NCBI GenBank assembly: GCA_009784975.1
Contig: WQXG01000030.1
Span: 1-38,307, forward strand
From: Treponema sp.
GTDB lineage: Bacteria; Spirochaetota; Spirochaetia; Treponematales; Breznakiellaceae
DNA: 38,307 bases
Reading direction: 5' to 3'
The position numbers were made by a program, and so were the translations under genes. The number at the start of each line of letters is the position of its first letter. Position 1 is the stretch's first letter. Positions 6,179 through 14,542 of the stretch are shown in pieces. Under the pieces are notes generated by a model. It searched no databases and had not been told where the DNA came from. It saw nothing but the letters and a program-made list of their open reading frames with translations.

Positions 6179-8128
6179 TTACTTTTCTGTTTTCTGCATA
6201 AAAATTGCTTCCCCGCGGGGAATATTTACGGATTTTAACTGCAATTTTACATTTTCATTCGGTATAACATTTTTTTGCAATGCTACCTGTGTTTCAAGAG
6301 CAAGAGCGGGAATTATTACCTGCATCCGGTTTCCCTTGTTTTCAAGAGCGACAGCATCCCACACAGAATCTTTTTTATTGGCAAGATAAACCATTAGCCA
6401 GTGGTTTTCTGAAGCGCGTTCCGCCTGAACAGCGGCGGCTGCTGCCGCTTCACAAAAACCCAGCCGCGCAGAAACTTCGTCTATGCTTAACGGCGCCTGT
6501 GGGGTGCCCCCAAGCGATCGCCCCGTGCGCAAAAAAGCGCGTATCTGAAGATGAGCCAGAAGATCTGTATAACGGCGAAGCGGACTTGTAACCTGCGAGT
6601 AAACATCAAGACCAAGCCCCTGATGAAAACCTGGTTTTGCCGAAAGAATACGCGGTCTCATACAACGGCGCAGCTGCCATGAACCTGCCAGCCCTTCAAA
6701 ATTTTGTTTGTTCGTTTCCGGCATTTCCACTTCCTGGCTGATGTAAGGAAAAGCAATATTTTTGGAAGCTGCCCATATTCCCGCGCCTTCGCCGGCAATC
6801 AGCATACATTCCCTAACCAAAGAAACCGAACGGTAGTTTACAATGGGCTCTATCTCAACATTCCCATCGCTGACTTTAATATGAACATCCGGCAGCTCAA
6901 TATTCACTGCTCCCTGATTAATACGCCGCCTGTAAATCTTCTGTGATAATTCATAAAGCGCGCGCAAAGAATTATTACTGCCTATTTCCGCATCTGCGTC
7001 TTCATAAGTAATGCGCTGCACCTTTACAACCGAAGGAAAAATTTCCGTATCAATTACAGATGCGCTTTCATCAATTGTCATTTTAAATGTGAGCGCCAAA
7101 GATTTCTCTGAAAGCCCAAGCGCAAACATTGGCAGAGAATCTTCGGCTAACATCCGCACAGCGCCTTCCGGAAGATAAAGGGTAGCGCCTCTGTCTCTGG
7201 CTTCTTTTTCTGCGGGGCTGTCAAAAGTAATGGAAGAGGCAGGGTCTGCAACATGAACATAAAGGTTATACAGGGTTTTGCCGCTTTTTTCGCAGATTGT
7301 GTTTTCCAAAGATACAGCATCATCAGGATCATTGCTCCATGCGTTGTCGATAGCGAATGCTGCAAGATAACAAAGGTCGCGCCGTTCTTCCTGCTCCGGC
7401 GCATCGGGGCAAATGTGTGCGCTGACCGGCGAAAGACCAAAGCGGCTGGGGTGAGGATTAACTGTTTCTGCCCAGAAACCGGTTTTAAGAAGGAGTGAAT
7501 GCGCCTCTTCCGGAGTTTCGCCAAGACCCAATTCTTTCATGGTGCGGCTTTTTGCAGATTTGCCGTAAGCAAGCGCTTCAACATCCTGCATAAAACGCGC
7601 GTAAACAGGATCTGTAAACAAGCTGCTGATATTATTGGGTTTCTTTAAACATGCTTTTATTTGTTCCAAAAATTGAGCGCGCTCGCCTGTTTCGCGCATT
7701 TTTTCATTTCGCTTTGTTTCTTCCGCTTCAACCTCGTTTACGGGACGCGGCAGAATTTCTGCAATGGAACCGGTAAAATAAAGACCGTCCCGCAATATTA
7801 AATATACGGAATAAGCTGCAGCAGGCGTGAATTCGCTGAAAATAAGCGCAGCCAGCTCTTTTAAAGAAAGATCGGGGGACCCCCGCGCGCAATCATCGGA
7901 CAACAGCTCCCAAACTTCCCGTACTGCTGCTTCAGAAATATGACATTCAATCTGATTAAAATCCTTTACAGGACCAACATGGATAAGCTCAATATCTTTT
8001 TCCCGGACTTTGATATGTCCGCTATTTTGAAGAGAAATGGTAATTTTTCCGTCTGCACAGTCTTTTACAAGCGCAGGTTTACCCTTGTAAATAACAAGCG
8101 CATTTGCCGGCACCGGATCGTTTATCAT
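6179..8128 (-). CDS. RNase II / RNB-domain 3'-5' exoribonuclease
   Basis: This 649-residue protein has the RNB catalytic domain. NDPDDAVSLE near residue 265 carries the Mg-binding aspartates, VHVADPAS follows, and SQVTSPLRRYTDLLAH near 516 is the family's C-terminal RNB signature. The N-terminal 250 residues, beginning with a small beta-rich segment (VIYKGKPALVKD), replace classical cold-shock domains, and a short C-terminal part stands where an S1 domain would be. It should degrade single-stranded RNA processively in the cytoplasm. RNase R is usually longer, so an RNase II-type or VacB-like name fits better. The start ATG has no SD and lies 6 nt after a perfect TATAAT. It is convergent with PBP1A. 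Confidence 0.88.
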   Translation of the reverse strand: MINDPVPANALVIYKGKPALVKDCADGKITISLQNSGHIKVREKDIELIHVGPVKDFNQIECHISEAAVREVWELLSDDCARGSPDLSLKELAALIFSEFTPAAAYSVYLILRDGLYFTGSIAEILPRPVNEVEAEETKRNEKMRETGERAQFLEQIKACLKKPNNISSLFTDPVYARFMQDVEALAYGKSAKSRTMKELGLGETPEEAHSLLLKTGFWAETVNPHPSRFGLSPVSAHICPDAPEQEERRDLCYLAAFAIDNAWSNDPDDAVSLENTICEKSGKTLYNLYVHVADPASSITFDSPAEKEARDRGATLYLPEGAVRMLAEDSLPMFALGLSEKSLALTFKMTIDESASVIDTEIFPSVVKVQRITYEDADAEIGSNNSLRALYELSQKIYRRRINQGAVNIELPDVHIKVSDGNVEIEPIVNYRSVSLVRECMLIAGEGAGIWAASKNIAFPYISQEVEMPETNKQNFEGLAGSWQLRRCMRPRILSAKPGFHQGLGLDVYSQVTSPLRRYTDLLAHLQIRAFLRTGRSLGGTPQAPLSIDEVSARLGFCEAAAAAAVQAERASENHWLMVYLANKKDSVWDAVALENKGNRMQVIIPALALETQVALQKNVIPNENVKLQLKSVNIPRGEAIFMQKTEK

Positions 8129-8189: not shown

Positions 8190-9038
8190 TTACATGGCTT
8201 CTACGTAGACGCACTCGCGCAGTTCGTCGGCATGTTTGCGTATTTTTTTTAATGCGCGCATTTCTATCTGGCGTACGGTTTCCGGAGAAAGATCGAGTTT
8301 GTCGCCGATTTCCCTTAGCGTGTAACGTTCGCAGCCGTTTAACTGGTAACGATAGCTGATAATACGCTTTTCATTATCTTTAAGTTTATTAAGAATACGC
8401 ATAGTGCCGTCACGGGAAAATTGTTTCATAAGATTTCTTTCCGGACTGTAGGTATAATCTTCGTGAGTATCCATCGCGCTGACAGAATCATCATTTACAT
8501 TCTGATCAAACGACAGCGAATCAGCAGCCATATTGATGAAAGCATCAACATCCTTGACAGGAATGCCTATTTCATTGGCAATATCAATATTTTTAGGCTG
8601 ATGCATCAGGGTTTGACAGAGGATATGATATGCGCGCTGTATTTTACGCAGAGTTTCTTCTTTTCGCTGGGGCAGACGCACCATGCGGCGTTTGTTGGTA
8701 ATATAACGGCTGATATACTGCCTAATCCACCAGCTTGCATATGTGCAGAAACGCACATTTTTCTGGTGATCATATTTTTCCGCTGCCTGAATCAGCCCGA
8801 TATTTCCCTCCTGGATAATATCTAAAATGGGAATATCTGATATGTTGAACAAACCGGCAATTTTTACTACCAGCCGCAAATTGGAATTTACCAGTTTGTG
8901 CAGAGCTTTTTTCTCCCCGTTCTGTATCTGCCGGGACAATTCCAGCTCTTCTTCAAACGATAAAAGAGGAAAAACCTTAATCTGCTTAAAGTAAGTTTCA
9001 AGCAGATCATCACTTGATTTTGGCACTTTCTTCTGCAT
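8190..9038 (-). CDS. Alternative sigma-70 family RNA polymerase sigma factor (RpoS/RpoH-like, group 2/3)
   Basis: This 282-residue protein lacks the long region 1.1 of the primary sigma factor. Region 1.2 begins at DLLETYFKQI. Region 2, about residues 50-115, contains NLRLVVKIAG, DIIQEGNIGLIQA and the -10 recognition segment YASWWIRQYISR. Region 3 follows, and region 4, about 215-270, ends in the HTH LREIGDKLDLSPETVRQIE. The ATG has a strong TGGAGG at 9045-9050. About 14 nt further upstream begins a sigma-54 type -24/-12 element, so this factor is probably itself under RpoN. I cannot tell RpoS from RpoH from sequence alone. It is monocistronic, and 61 nt separate it from the next gene. Confidence 0.88.
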   Translation of the reverse strand: MQKKVPKSSDDLLETYFKQIKVFPLLSFEEELELSRQIQNGEKKALHKLVNSNLRLVVKIAGLFNISDIPILDIIQEGNIGLIQAAEKYDHQKNVRFCTYASWWIRQYISRYITNKRRMVRLPQRKEETLRKIQRAYHILCQTLMHQPKNIDIANEIGIPVKDVDAFINMAADSLSFDQNVNDDSVSAMDTHEDYTYSPERNLMKQFSRDGTMRILNKLKDNEKRIISYRYQLNGCERYTLREIGDKLDLSPETVRQIEMRALKKIRKHADELRECVYVEAM

Positions 9039-9062
9039 ATCAAGCCTCCAGTCTATTTATAT

Positions 9063-9079
9063 AGCAAAATGTATGCCAA
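9063..9079 (-). promoter_or_regulatory. Sigma-54 (-24/-12) promoter of the alternative sigma factor gene
   Basis: Read on the minus strand, the element is TTGGCATACATTTTGCT. It matches the RpoN consensus TGGCAY-N5-TTGCW, with GG (9077-9076) and GC (9065-9064) exactly 10 nt apart. Transcription would start near 9052, just ahead of the SD at 9050-9045 and ATG 9038. The enhancer-binding protein and its sites are not visible here. Confidence 0.75.
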
Positions 9080-9243
9080 GTCTTATATTGATTATTTAAA
9101 TGAGCGTAACTCCTTATTATATCAGGAATTACGAAAAAGCATCAAAAAACAAAGCCAAGAATATGTCTGAACTGTATCGTTTTTCATACAATCCCTATTC
9201 TTTTTGTATAGAAATTTTATTTTTAATATGCTAGAGTTAAAGC

Positions 9244-9687
9244 ATGGCTGGTATAACCGCAACAGAAAAAAAAGGTGATATTTACTATTTTGTGCAATGG
9301 TCTGCGCTTTCCAAAGCAGATCGTTATGAAATAATAGCAAAAGTGCCGGCGCTTGCCGGGGTTTTTGAAGTTTACTGGATGGATGAAAAAGGCCACCTGC
9401 GGTTATTCGCCGTAGGCCAGACAAATTACGGAGGGTTAAGAAGCGAATTACGCCGGATAACCGATCCGGAATTGTGCGTAAACGATGAAAAAACAAAAAA
9501 AATCCTGGAAGAAAAAGAAATCTGGTACCGTTATTCCCCGACAAATTCGGCAAATGTAATGTCTGATGTAATCTGGTTTTTTATGCAAAAATATTTTCCG
9601 GAAAATACATCTGTAAAAAACTCCGGCCGCTTTGAGAATATCTTTTTAAAAGAATCCGCGCCCGATAAATTAATTTGGGTGCCATGA
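9244..9687 (+). CDS. Conserved hypothetical protein, possibly a degenerate GIY-YIG fold
   Basis: I do not recognise this 147-residue protein with certainty. The segment AGVFEVYWMDEKGHLRLFAV followed by GQTNYGGLRSELRRI (about residues 37-72) is laid out like the start of a GIY-YIG domain: a strand ending GVYE, a strand ending VGQT, then a basic helix. The first Tyr of the motif is Phe here. A later helix carries MSDVIWFFMQKYFP. The catalytic Arg and Glu cannot be assigned safely. No SD precedes ATG 9244. The stop overlaps the next start as ATGA, so it is coupled to the YciO-like gene and may share an RNA-related role. Confidence 0.6.
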   Translation: MAGITATEKKGDIYYFVQWSALSKADRYEIIAKVPALAGVFEVYWMDEKGHLRLFAVGQTNYGGLRSELRRITDPELCVNDEKTKKILEEKEIWYRYSPTNSANVMSDVIWFFMQKYFPENTSVKNSGRFENIFLKESAPDKLIWVP

Positions 9688-11957: not shown

Positions 11958-11972
11958 GTGTCTGACAGACAC
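11958..11972. other. Small palindrome between convergent genes
   Basis: GTGTCTGACAGACAC is a perfect 7+1+7 palindrome filling the 17-nt gap between cls and the convergent regulator gene and reaching the latter's stop codon. It may act as a weak bidirectional stop or a binding site. Confidence 0.3.
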
Positions 11973-14506
11973 TAATAAACAATTTTATGTTCGGCTGCGA
12001 TACGGATTGCATCTGCCAGATTTTCCGCGCCCAGCTTCATGTAAATATTATTTATCATCATTTTAACCGTATTTATGGAAAGACCGCGGCTGGAAGCTAT
12101 TTCTGCGCGCGAAAGACCATGCGAAAGATCTTTTAATATTTCTTTTTCTCTTGGAGAAATAGCTATACCGTCTGCCACTCCGGCAGTTCTTTTATATTTT
12201 GCTGTAATATGAGTCTGGCGTTTTGCATAAGATGCTGATTTTCGGTTAATGTTTTCCAGCCATAATTTTGGAATTTTTCCTGTCTTTTTTAACGCAAAAG
12301 CCGTAAGAGTGCGCATATCTTTTCCAAGTTCTATAAACGGCATAATAATGCCGTTTGGTGATGCAGTTTCGTATGCTTCCTCCAGCGCGTAATACGCTTT
12401 TTCCTTTTTTTTCATTTTATAGTGAATGCAGGCTTCTAAAACAAGCATTTCTATCCTTCCAAACAAATAAGATTCGCGCTGCTTCATATCATTGATATAA
12501 GAAAGCAATAAAGAGTAATTTCTTGTTATGTAGCAATAGCGCGCCTTCATTTGATTTGCATAATTTTCTATAAAGCCTGCATAAGCATAGAGAGAAAAAT
12601 TTTCTTTTAACCAATCCGGAGATTTTTCCGGCATTCCCAGCATACACTTGTACCAGCACATGGAAATATCATAATCAATAAATCGGTTAAAATATTTGTT
12701 ATCATCCATATTAATCTTCATGTCTTTTAATGCCTGTTCTGCTTTTTCGTAATTGCCCTGCAAAACAGCAATTCTTAATGTGTAAAATAAAGCTCTGTGA
12801 ACAATTTCGGATCGTTTCATTTCCCTTGCCCGGCTTAAACCGCCGGCTATTGCAGGTTCAGCAGCCTGTATATCCCCCTGATAAAATTTTAATTCTCCCC
12901 ATCCCAGACTGTCTTCTCCCGTTTCAAAAGCAAGAAAACACCTTGATAAATGTTCACCGCTGCGCATTACAGCGTTAATAAAATCTTCCGGTGCGCCTTT
13001 TCTTGATGAGCCAACTGCGCAAATCCAGGGACCCGGAGTGCGGGTTATTAAATCTCCCGGATCTACCGGCACTGCGCAGCATTGACTCAATTTCTCAAAA
13101 TAAAGATCAAAATCGTAAATATCATTTTTTGCGCACATTAAAACGCGCACAATCGCCCAGCAATAATATATGCTGCTTAATGTACTCATTCTGAACAGAT
13201 CTTCTTTTGGCAGATCAATATATCTTGCTTCGTAATATGCGGCTTTTTTTTCCGCTTCTTCCAAAAGCCCCTGGCAAGTAATTGCACGTAAATGCACAGA
13301 AGCAAGATATGTAACTGAATCAAAAATATGCTGCGGAGTGCGATCAAGAATTGCCGCAGTGTAACACGCAATATCATAAGGTGTCTGCGTTGGAGATCCA
13401 ATAAATACATTTACAATAGATTTATAATCTTCTATTTTTTCATAGTACGACAAAGCGTCAATTTTAAATCCGTTTAAATTACACCAGCGCCCCGCTATTG
13501 TATAAGTTTCATGTCTTTGTTCCTGTGAAAGAAGATTTTGTTTTGTAGCAAGAAATTCCAGAAACAGAGGGTGAATCAGAAATGCATTGATATAACAATC
13601 ACGCCGAATATAGGCGTTTTTACGTTCCAGTTCGTCAATCAATTCTTCGTTTGTTCCTGCCAATAACGCAATAAGTTCAACCGAAAGATGATCTATAAGG
13701 GAAAGCTGCACTAAAAAGATTTGCAGTTTTTCTGATGTTACATTCCATACTTCTGTTTCCATAAACCGGAAGATATTTGATTTCATGGCATTACGCAAAT
13801 ATCCTTCGTAACCCGGCGCTTTTTTGTATGAACGCGCTACATAGTTAATTGCAAATGCCCAACCTTCGGTATCCTGCATAAGCTTGTGCAGATTATCAGG
13901 CTGAAGCGAAATATCCTGCACAAGAAAATACTGCGCTATCTCACTGTCTGTGAACAGTAATTCATTTTCGCTGATATTGAATATTTGATCGCTGGATATC
14001 AGGCTTGCGATATTAAGACGGGGAGTAGAACGTGAAATTAAAAACAGGGTAATCCCAACAGGCAAATTACGGATCGCTTCTTCTACAAATCTTATTACAA
14101 CCGGATTTTCTATATAATGACAATCATCAAAGACTATAATCTGCCTCTTTTTATCTGCATGAACATGCAAATAATTATGAAATTGTTTAAGTTTTTCTGT
14201 TGTGTCCGGAAAACCAAGTTTTTTAATTGATGCTGCAAAGGGAGCATTTATCTGCATCATGCTGTGAATAAAATTTTCCCAAAAACGTCCGCCGACATTA
14301 TCACGTTCAGAAAGCTGCATCCATAATGTAGGGGTTTGATACTCCTGAACAAAATCATGAACAGCAGTTGTCTTGCCGTAACCTGCTCCGGCGCAAACAA
14401 TAATCAGAGGATGTTTCATTGCTTCTGTAAATAACCGGTTTAATCTGTCGCGTTTAAAATAAAAATCGCCGTTTTTTGTTCCGGTTTTTTGTGTAGTTTT
14501 TAACAT
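11972..14506 (-). CDS. MalT-like ATP-binding LuxR-family transcriptional regulator (LAL/STAND type)
   Basis: About 844 residues with three parts. The NTPase has P-loop GAGYGKTT at about 40-47 and Walker B IIVFDDCHY about 80 residues later. A long helical middle resembles TPR repeats (for example KAEQALKDMK and KAYYALEEAYETA). The C-terminal LuxR HTH contains ISPREKEILKDLSHGLSRAE and INTVKMMINNIYMKLG. Such proteins bind a small inducer with ATP and then activate transcription. I chose ATG 14506 over the in-frame ATG at 14515 because a TTGACA promoter lies so close that 14515 would overlap its -10. Targets are unknown; the divergent ABC permease gene 121 nt away is the obvious candidate. Confidence 0.88.
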   Translation of the reverse strand: MLKTTQKTGTKNGDFYFKRDRLNRLFTEAMKHPLIIVCAGAGYGKTTAVHDFVQEYQTPTLWMQLSERDNVGGRFWENFIHSMMQINAPFAASIKKLGFPDTTEKLKQFHNYLHVHADKKRQIIVFDDCHYIENPVVIRFVEEAIRNLPVGITLFLISRSTPRLNIASLISSDQIFNISENELLFTDSEIAQYFLVQDISLQPDNLHKLMQDTEGWAFAINYVARSYKKAPGYEGYLRNAMKSNIFRFMETEVWNVTSEKLQIFLVQLSLIDHLSVELIALLAGTNEELIDELERKNAYIRRDCYINAFLIHPLFLEFLATKQNLLSQEQRHETYTIAGRWCNLNGFKIDALSYYEKIEDYKSIVNVFIGSPTQTPYDIACYTAAILDRTPQHIFDSVTYLASVHLRAITCQGLLEEAEKKAAYYEARYIDLPKEDLFRMSTLSSIYYCWAIVRVLMCAKNDIYDFDLYFEKLSQCCAVPVDPGDLITRTPGPWICAVGSSRKGAPEDFINAVMRSGEHLSRCFLAFETGEDSLGWGELKFYQGDIQAAEPAIAGGLSRAREMKRSEIVHRALFYTLRIAVLQGNYEKAEQALKDMKINMDDNKYFNRFIDYDISMCWYKCMLGMPEKSPDWLKENFSLYAYAGFIENYANQMKARYCYITRNYSLLLSYINDMKQRESYLFGRIEMLVLEACIHYKMKKKEKAYYALEEAYETASPNGIIMPFIELGKDMRTLTAFALKKTGKIPKLWLENINRKSASYAKRQTHITAKYKRTAGVADGIAISPREKEILKDLSHGLSRAEIASSRGLSINTVKMMINNIYMKLGAENLADAIRIAAEHKIVY

Positions 14507-14514
14507 TCTTTGCA

Positions 14515-14542
14515 TTTTTAAAAGATTTTACCGGAATGTCAA
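14515..14542 (-). promoter_or_regulatory. Predicted promoter of the LuxR-family regulator
   Basis: On the minus strand, consensus TTGACA (14542-14537) is followed after 16 nt by TAAAAA (14520-14515). The -10 ends 8 nt before ATG 14506, and no SD is present, so a leaderless mRNA is predicted. Confidence 0.5.

Follow-up and report, generated by a model that had tools for sequence, protein, structure and literature searches.

A sigma54 promoter conserved before an RpoS-type sigma factor gene across the Spirochaetia points to a likely RpoN-to-sigma cascade in Treponema

The window analysed here, a stretch of 38,307 nt from the gut spirochaete Treponema sp. (contig WQXG01000030.1), carries on its minus strand, at 8190..9038, a gene for an alternative sigma70-family factor of 282 aa, recognised by its Pfam regions 1.2, 2, 3 and 4 and by its place in protein trees, and hereafter called sigma-B. 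Its best NCBIfam match is TIGR02394 (RpoS), at 222.1 bits and below the curated cut-off of 378.7. A protein search for related loci returned 32, of which 25 are spirochaetal and form our near set. Downstream of sigma-B and on the same strand lies a gene for an RNase II/R-type exoribonuclease (6179..8128, minus strand, RNB domain), which by tblastn adjoins sigma-B in 16 of the 25 near loci, some of them being too short to contain it. On the other side, a divergent ORF of 147 aa without a family match (9244..9687, plus strand) has its upstream region in common with sigma-B and adjoins it in 17 of the 25 (tblastn). Further along the window there is an 847-aa MalT-like LuxR-family regulator at 11972-14515(-).

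Just before sigma-B, at 9079-9063 on the minus strand, stands TTGGCATACATTTTGCT, a sigma54 (-24/-12) promoter by its sequence and its conservation, which agrees with the generally known sigma54 consensus at every fixed position; in the sequence read its GG lies at 9077-9076 and its GC at 9065-9064, 10 nt apart. With C(9064) as the -12 position, transcription is predicted to start at ~9052. The predicted leader up to the ATG at 9038 would measure 14 nt and hold a Shine-Dalgarno sequence, GGAGG, at 9049-9045 (start and Shine-Dalgarno together spanning 9045..9052, minus strand). The first-pass annotation had described an RpoN-like element here, with GG and GC exactly 10 nt apart, and had placed the start about 14 nt before the ATG with a Shine-Dalgarno sequence between; the element is indeed present with that spacing and fits at all fixed positions, and the predicted leader agrees in its positions. 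The element at 9079-9063(-) is real.

Sigma54 promoters follow the consensus YTGGCAYNNNNNTTGCW, the pattern used in our scans. Its only exact match in the whole window is the one at 9079-9063(-), and allowing up to two mismatches gives 20 matches where 25.3 are expected, which leaves only the exact, in-place match as notable. Across the whole genome the 15-base core is matched exactly 16 times, and 325 times with at most one mismatch, compared to 213 for the reversed pattern. The motif alone is therefore weakly specific and proves little, and conservation becomes the decisive evidence. Four of the 16 exact cores fall outside any ORF of at least 100 aa, and these stand 27-118 nt before an ORF: the window's sigma gene, genes on contigs C66 and C61, the latter encoding a second sigma70 factor, and one that by eye looks Hsp20-like.

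Among the near loci the element precedes the sigma-B orthologue in 24 of 25, every time as TTGGCAY-N5-(T/C)TGC; the one locus without it, L024, is a second sigma-B copy in one MAG. Two MAGs carry two copies each (L019 with L024, and L016 with L026); both copies of the latter pair have the promoter, and in the former the second copy is the one without. On the scale of the class, a sample of 218 Spirochaetia genomes yielded 102 matches at E 1e-55 or better, our own genome included, and the upstream DNA of 100 loci was scored after exclusion of the own genome and of G033 (contig edge). The score is the number of fixed positions of YTGGCAYNNNNNTTGC that agree, 11 at most, GG and GC being obligatory; the E-value cut, the 10/11 score limit and the two-mismatch limit applied to palindromes below are our own choices, the last two set after the data had been seen. 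The maximum of 11 was reached by 72 loci, 22 scored 10, two scored 9, two scored 7, and two had no score, with no GG-N10-GC at all. In sum, 94 of 100 orthologues keep at least 10 of the 11 positions, against 2 of 100 when the sequences are reversed and 0.65 per 100 in mononucleotide shuffles, and 57 of 58 genera have at least one locus scoring 10 or more. Conservation of the element within the class Spirochaetia is far beyond chance.

Upstream activator sites of sigma54 promoters lie about 80-150 bp away. In the window a palindrome, TGTATGAAAAACGATACA (9173..9190, minus strand), has its centre 102 nt upstream of the TTGG and is our candidate enhancer (UAS-B). Of the 25 near promoters (24 relatives plus the window, L024 without promoter being left out of this and the TATAAT count), 19 have an exact copy of its core, TGTAT-N8-ATACA, with centres 101-106 nt upstream of TTGG. 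With one locus taken per genus, it occurs within two mismatches at 95-120 nt upstream in 43 of 57 genera, compared to 2.35 of 57 on shuffling the same stretch; three other stretches gave 1, 2 and 1 of 57. This suggests that TGTAT-N8-ATACA is a likely enhancer and a candidate activator site. In our own genome the palindrome is present at four places within one mismatch, and besides the window only the copy on C66 (one mismatch) lies before a sigma54-like promoter, ~115 nt upstream of TTGGCACAGTTATTGC and ahead of an unannotated 207-aa ORF for which no family matches were found. Of the palindrome matches elsewhere in our own genome, three were set aside: C44:23480, before a pair resembling phd/doc (by eye); C18:32738, where no ORF of at least 80 aa starts; and C33:25157, where a tRNA-like sequence is followed by a hairpin with a T-run (by eye).

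A second palindrome, TAATTCCTGATATAATAAGGAGTTAC (9106..9131, minus strand), is centred ~40 nt upstream of TTGG and in our own genome contains an extended -10-like sequence, TGATATAAT. When up to 5 mismatches in 22 positions are allowed, 22 of the 25 near promoters have it in the form GTAATTCCTTA-N5-TAAGGAATTAC; class-wide it is weak, its 14-base core occurring within three mismatches in 12 of 57 genera versus 2 and 0 in other stretches. Its sole other place within three mismatches in our own genome is the hairpin with T-run after the tRNA-like sequence on C33. We considered this palindrome as a conserved sigma70 promoter and rejected the idea, TATAAT being found in 2 of 25 near promoters and the -35 being unconserved.

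The genome itself (2.6 Mb, 73 contigs) has a single rpoN, whose product is complete, with activator-interacting, core-binding and DNA-binding domains (TIGR02395, 379.5 bits versus a cut-off of 277.35); rpoN is also found in 21 of 22 relatives, a set that does not take in the genome of L031, and the exception is a 1.6 Mb MAG. A search with PF00158, a family that also matches in all 14 control genomes, gave five matches in our own genome, two of them strong (250 and 245 bits) and three at 27-37 bits that look like general AAA proteins; this search found no further strong activator there. Both strong activators combine AAA+ and Fis-type HTH domains in a response regulator, and their genes lie beside histidine kinase genes. 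One, EBP1 (contig C44, L002), comes nearest to NtrX, its best NCBIfam match (435 bits versus a cut-off of 600); the other, EBP2 (contig C5), comes nearest to AtoC, below the curated cut-off. All 22 relatives have EBP1. For EBP2, 17 of them have a full-length copy and 2 a fragment, and none was found in the other 3 (G005, G010 and G015). In 21 of the 22 relatives we also observed at least one activator-like match beyond EBP1, EBP2 or fragments, many of them in frames of ~510 aa.

EBP1 resembles NtrYX/NtrC-type activation systems in its best NCBIfam match and in that its gene follows one for a HAMP histidine kinase; it differs in falling below the NtrX cut-off and in having GAFTDA, not GAFTGA, as its L1 loop. 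GAFTDA is shared by our own protein and 20 of the 22 relatives (EBP1 loci L140-L159), with GAFTGA in the two most distant. In EBP2 the L1 loop is GAFTGA for our own protein and for 14 of 17 relatives, the other 3 having GSFTGA. The same change in NorR (G266D) is described as giving constitutive activity in a section of PMC2941729, and a section of PMC4641369 places GAFTDA among the competent variants in Desulfovibrio.

A second sigma70 gene of 280 aa on contig C61 (L059, L111), which we call sigma-A, has a sigma54 promoter with an exact core match at C61:7073-7087 (minus strand). This promoter and that of the Hsp20-like gene on contig C8 have in common, by eye, the palindrome TGTGTCA-N3-TGACACA or a near form of it, plus a half-site. 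Sigma-A orthologues occur in 21 of 22 relatives (22 loci); with L138, which is without upstream DNA, left out of the promoter counts, all 21 promoters score 10 or 11 (15 at 11), and operator A (TGTGTCA-N3-TGACACA) is present within two mismatches at 16 of 21, as opposed to 0.02 of 21 in shuffles. The conserved sigma54 promoter of sigma-A, combined with a different operator, suggests that RpoN may feed two sigma70 factors in two parallel cascades, and two activators with two operators would suggest one activator per operator. A pairing of EBP2 loss in G010 with loss of operator A was considered and is weakened, as L123 keeps half-sites further upstream.

A sigma-B profile search covered 80 of the 116 genomes without an earlier match; in family f20 it picked out 14 genomes that encode a sigma in an open frame spanning 273-304 aa. 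We take this family to be Borreliaceae-like, partly from the gene order flgI-flgJ-sigma at one locus, L312, where the sigma gene follows genes resembling flgI and flgJ as named by eye. A flgI-flgJ-sigma layout is described for B. burgdorferi rpoS in part of PMC1976401. At 13 of these 14 loci the element scores 11/11; no element was found at the remaining one, L310, and none of the 14 has TGTAT-N8-ATACA within two mismatches at 95-120 nt. The other 16 loci from the profile search, largely sigma-A by the 71-row tree, all score 10 or 11.

Trees of 71, 65 and 47 rows were built from the 92 sigma proteins collected, with FliA left out of the latter two and E. coli RpoS and RpoD included in the 47-row tree. 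In the 65-row tree the Borreliaceae-like RpoS proteins group with sigma-B (31 rows versus 34, support 100/99), and their grouping with sigma-A is rejected (p-AU 8.3e-5, the AU-test groups in both trees having been defined with an earlier tree already in view). The 47-row tree again gives a clade of sigma-B and Borreliaceae RpoS (25 rows versus 22, 100/99), and joining Borreliaceae RpoS with E. coli RpoS is rejected (p-AU 0.011). Inside the sigma-B clade the place of the Borreliaceae-like proteins has support of 75/0 and 66/0, and their branches, at 1.4-1.5 changes per column, are long enough for some attraction in the trees to be possible. Judging from this single clade at 100/99, sigma-B is orthologous to Borrelia RpoS (BB0771).

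A further variation is seen in genus g5 of group f2 (five genomes: G188, G044, G064, G158 and G196), which we take to be the T. denticola genus. All nine of its sigma-A and sigma-B promoters that were fetched (L330-L336, L372 and L373) read TTAGCAY-N5-TTGC, with AG for GG at -24 and the rest kept, and each of the five sigma-B loci retains TGTAT-N8-ATACA without mismatch, at a distance of 95 or 146-147 nt. GG is kept in f2 loci of other genera (13 in one set, 5 in another). With two distant promoters showing one and the same single change, an altered sigma54 seems a likelier cause than promoter decay. No element was found before the second sigma match of G164 (family f1). In the presumed T. pallidum genome the sigma-B profile matched only a 621-aa RpoD at E 1e-35; the presumed T. 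pallidum RpoN has the RpoN box ARRTVNKYR, close to the ARRTVAKYR of our own genome. Rrp2 of T. denticola is named as a predicted, unstudied sigma54 activator in part of PMC12070737.

Starting from what is directly observed, namely the element, the palindrome, the conservation of both, intact rpoN and activator genes and the sigma clade, we infer a two-step RpoN-to-sigma cascade and consider it very likely that sigma-B is transcribed via RpoN from an activator-opened promoter at 9079-9063. The sigma54 polymerase would wait at this -24/-12 promoter in a closed state until an NtrC-type activator, most likely bound at TGTAT-N8-ATACA ~100 nt upstream, opens it using ATP. This activator would probably be one of the two response regulators with partner kinases, the NtrX-like EBP1 being the first choice. 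Sigma-B would then redirect polymerase to its own genes, in a step that would be orthologous to the sigma step of Borrelia RpoN-RpoS. Promoter firing, the palindrome's role, the activator's identity and control of genes by sigma-B are all predictions from sequence. The first-pass annotation had proposed such a cascade, with Borrelia as a parallel, and had tied it to conservation of GG-N10-GC before the orthologous sigma genes and to the presence of rpoN and of an enhancer-binding protein gene. Conservation was found at 24 of 25 near and 94 of 100 class-wide loci, rpoN is complete in our own genome and present in 21 of 22 relatives, two strong activator genes accompany it, and the parallel goes beyond analogy, with Borreliaceae RpoS in the same clade as the window's sigma factor. 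The cascade reading is thus supported as likely, and the case is larger than had been claimed, with its class-wide reach, a second sigma and the palindrome. Pointing the other way are the 6 of 100 class-wide loci below 10/11, the absence of elements at L024, the second match of G164 and L310, a sigma70-like promoter upstream in the window and the commonness of the motif alone in the genome.

A chance match of the consensus before sigma-B might be suspected from the 16 exact cores in 2.6 Mb. An element kept in place and in sequence in 57 of 58 genera does not fit such an origin; the class-wide counts refute it, and we give it next to no probability. More substance attaches to the sigma70-like promoter TTGATG-N18-TATAAT at 9116..9145 (minus strand), rival or additional, which scores 10 of 12 in a consensus scan with TG before the -10; sites of such quality number 2 in 9000-9300 versus 1.4 expected in shuffles. 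That this extended -10 promoter (9145-9116) mainly drives sigma-B, leaving the sigma54 element a secondary role, we consider improbable, as TATAAT occurs near that place in only 2 of 25 near promoters (the window and L034) and the information content at the would-be -35 does not exceed 0.08 bit over 57 genera.

With transcription by RpoN as the preferred reading, the role of the palindrome and the choice of activator have rivals of their own. TGTAT-N8-ATACA could serve another regulator or the divergent gene at 9244, with RpoN activated enhancer-free as in Borrelia; the divergent gene does adjoin sigma-B in 17 of 25 near loci, and the Borreliaceae-like loci, having the promoter without the palindrome, indicate that activation without it is possible. 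This is nonetheless unlikely, given a distance to the promoter that stays within 95-109 nt in 43 of 57 genera, the one-mismatch copy before another sigma54-like promoter on C66 of our own genome, and the exact copies at all five T. denticola-genus sigma-B loci, at 95 or 146-147 nt. As to the activator of sigma-B, its universal presence in the 22 relatives, compared to full-length EBP2 in 17 and no EBP2 in 3, weakly favours EBP1 over EBP2. The opposite assignment, with AtoC-like EBP2 (C5) and not NtrX-like EBP1 (C44) acting at this promoter, is a serious possibility that falls somewhat short of probable: our own genome encodes both proteins, as do most of the 22 relatives, but the three relatives in which EBP2 was not found all have the exact TGTAT-N8-ATACA, and EBP1 as well. 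Operator A is kept in two of these three, so the misses of EBP2 may be assembly gaps.

Among known systems, the B. burgdorferi cascade Rrp2-RpoN-RpoS (BB0763, BB0450 and BB0771) resembles the one proposed here in having a sigma54 promoter directly before an alternative sigma70-family gene, sigma proteins of one clade and an NtrC-type activator gene in the genome. Borrelia rpoS starts at an experimentally shown sigma54 promoter, according to the relevant part of PMC1976401, and that promoter also figures in parts of PMC3037356 and PMC11109971. The two differ in that the window has a conserved palindrome ~102 nt upstream, suggesting enhancer-bound activation, whereas Borrelia Rrp2 is reported in part of PMC1976401 to act enhancer-free, and in that our own genome has a pair of strong activators and a pair of sigma70 genes behind sigma54 promoters, whereas Rrp2 is the only sigma54 activator in B. 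burgdorferi according to a section of PMC11109971. With gammaproteobacterial RpoS (sigma38), sigma-B shares the sigma70 family, regions 1.2 to 4 and the best NCBIfam match TIGR02394; unlike it, sigma-B lies below the TIGR02394 cut-off, and E. coli RpoS falls outside the spirochaete clade.

As the sigma-B clade takes in Borreliaceae RpoS, the RpoN-RpoS cascade looks ancestral in the class Spirochaetia. With the sigma54 promoter of that clade in 57 of 58 genera, the cascade would predate Borrelia, and the enhancer-free form would be derived. A fuller reconstruction, which we hold to be as apt to prove wrong as right, would give the Spirochaetia ancestor two RpoN-to-sigma70 cascades with their own activators and operators (TGTAT-N8-ATACA for sigma-B/RpoS, TGTGTCA-N3-TGACACA for sigma-A); Borrelia would have kept only the sigma-B arm and lost the enhancer, T. 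pallidum would have lost both sigma genes, and the T. denticola genus would have changed GG to AG at both -24 sites together, which would imply that its sigma54 recognises the -24 site differently. The cascade is central to Borrelia's tick-mammal cycle (part of PMC11109971), and whether Borrelia RpoS counts as a true RpoS has been disputed; section 23 of PMC6719511 reviews such doubts and places the protein in a broad grouping with diverse bacteria. In the open-access literature we found no earlier report of a class-wide spirochaete promoter or cascade: the terms 'Treponema' and 'other spirochetes' are absent from the main text of PMC6719511, as are 'Treponema' and 'Borrelia' from that of PMC12316311, a survey of sigma54 regulons, and passages of PMC9481697 and PMC12236494 have no bearing on a class-wide cascade. 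A circuit known from Lyme bacteria thus looks ancient and common among spirochaetes, and the origin of the cascade, the missing Borrelia enhancer and the role of the second sigma become testable, also in culturable treponemes.

A separate observation concerns the apparent primary sigma of our own genome (L007, C3:30094-30303(-)), which has an open frame of only 337 aa, compared to frames of ~525-834 aa for the RpoD-like matches of other genomes.
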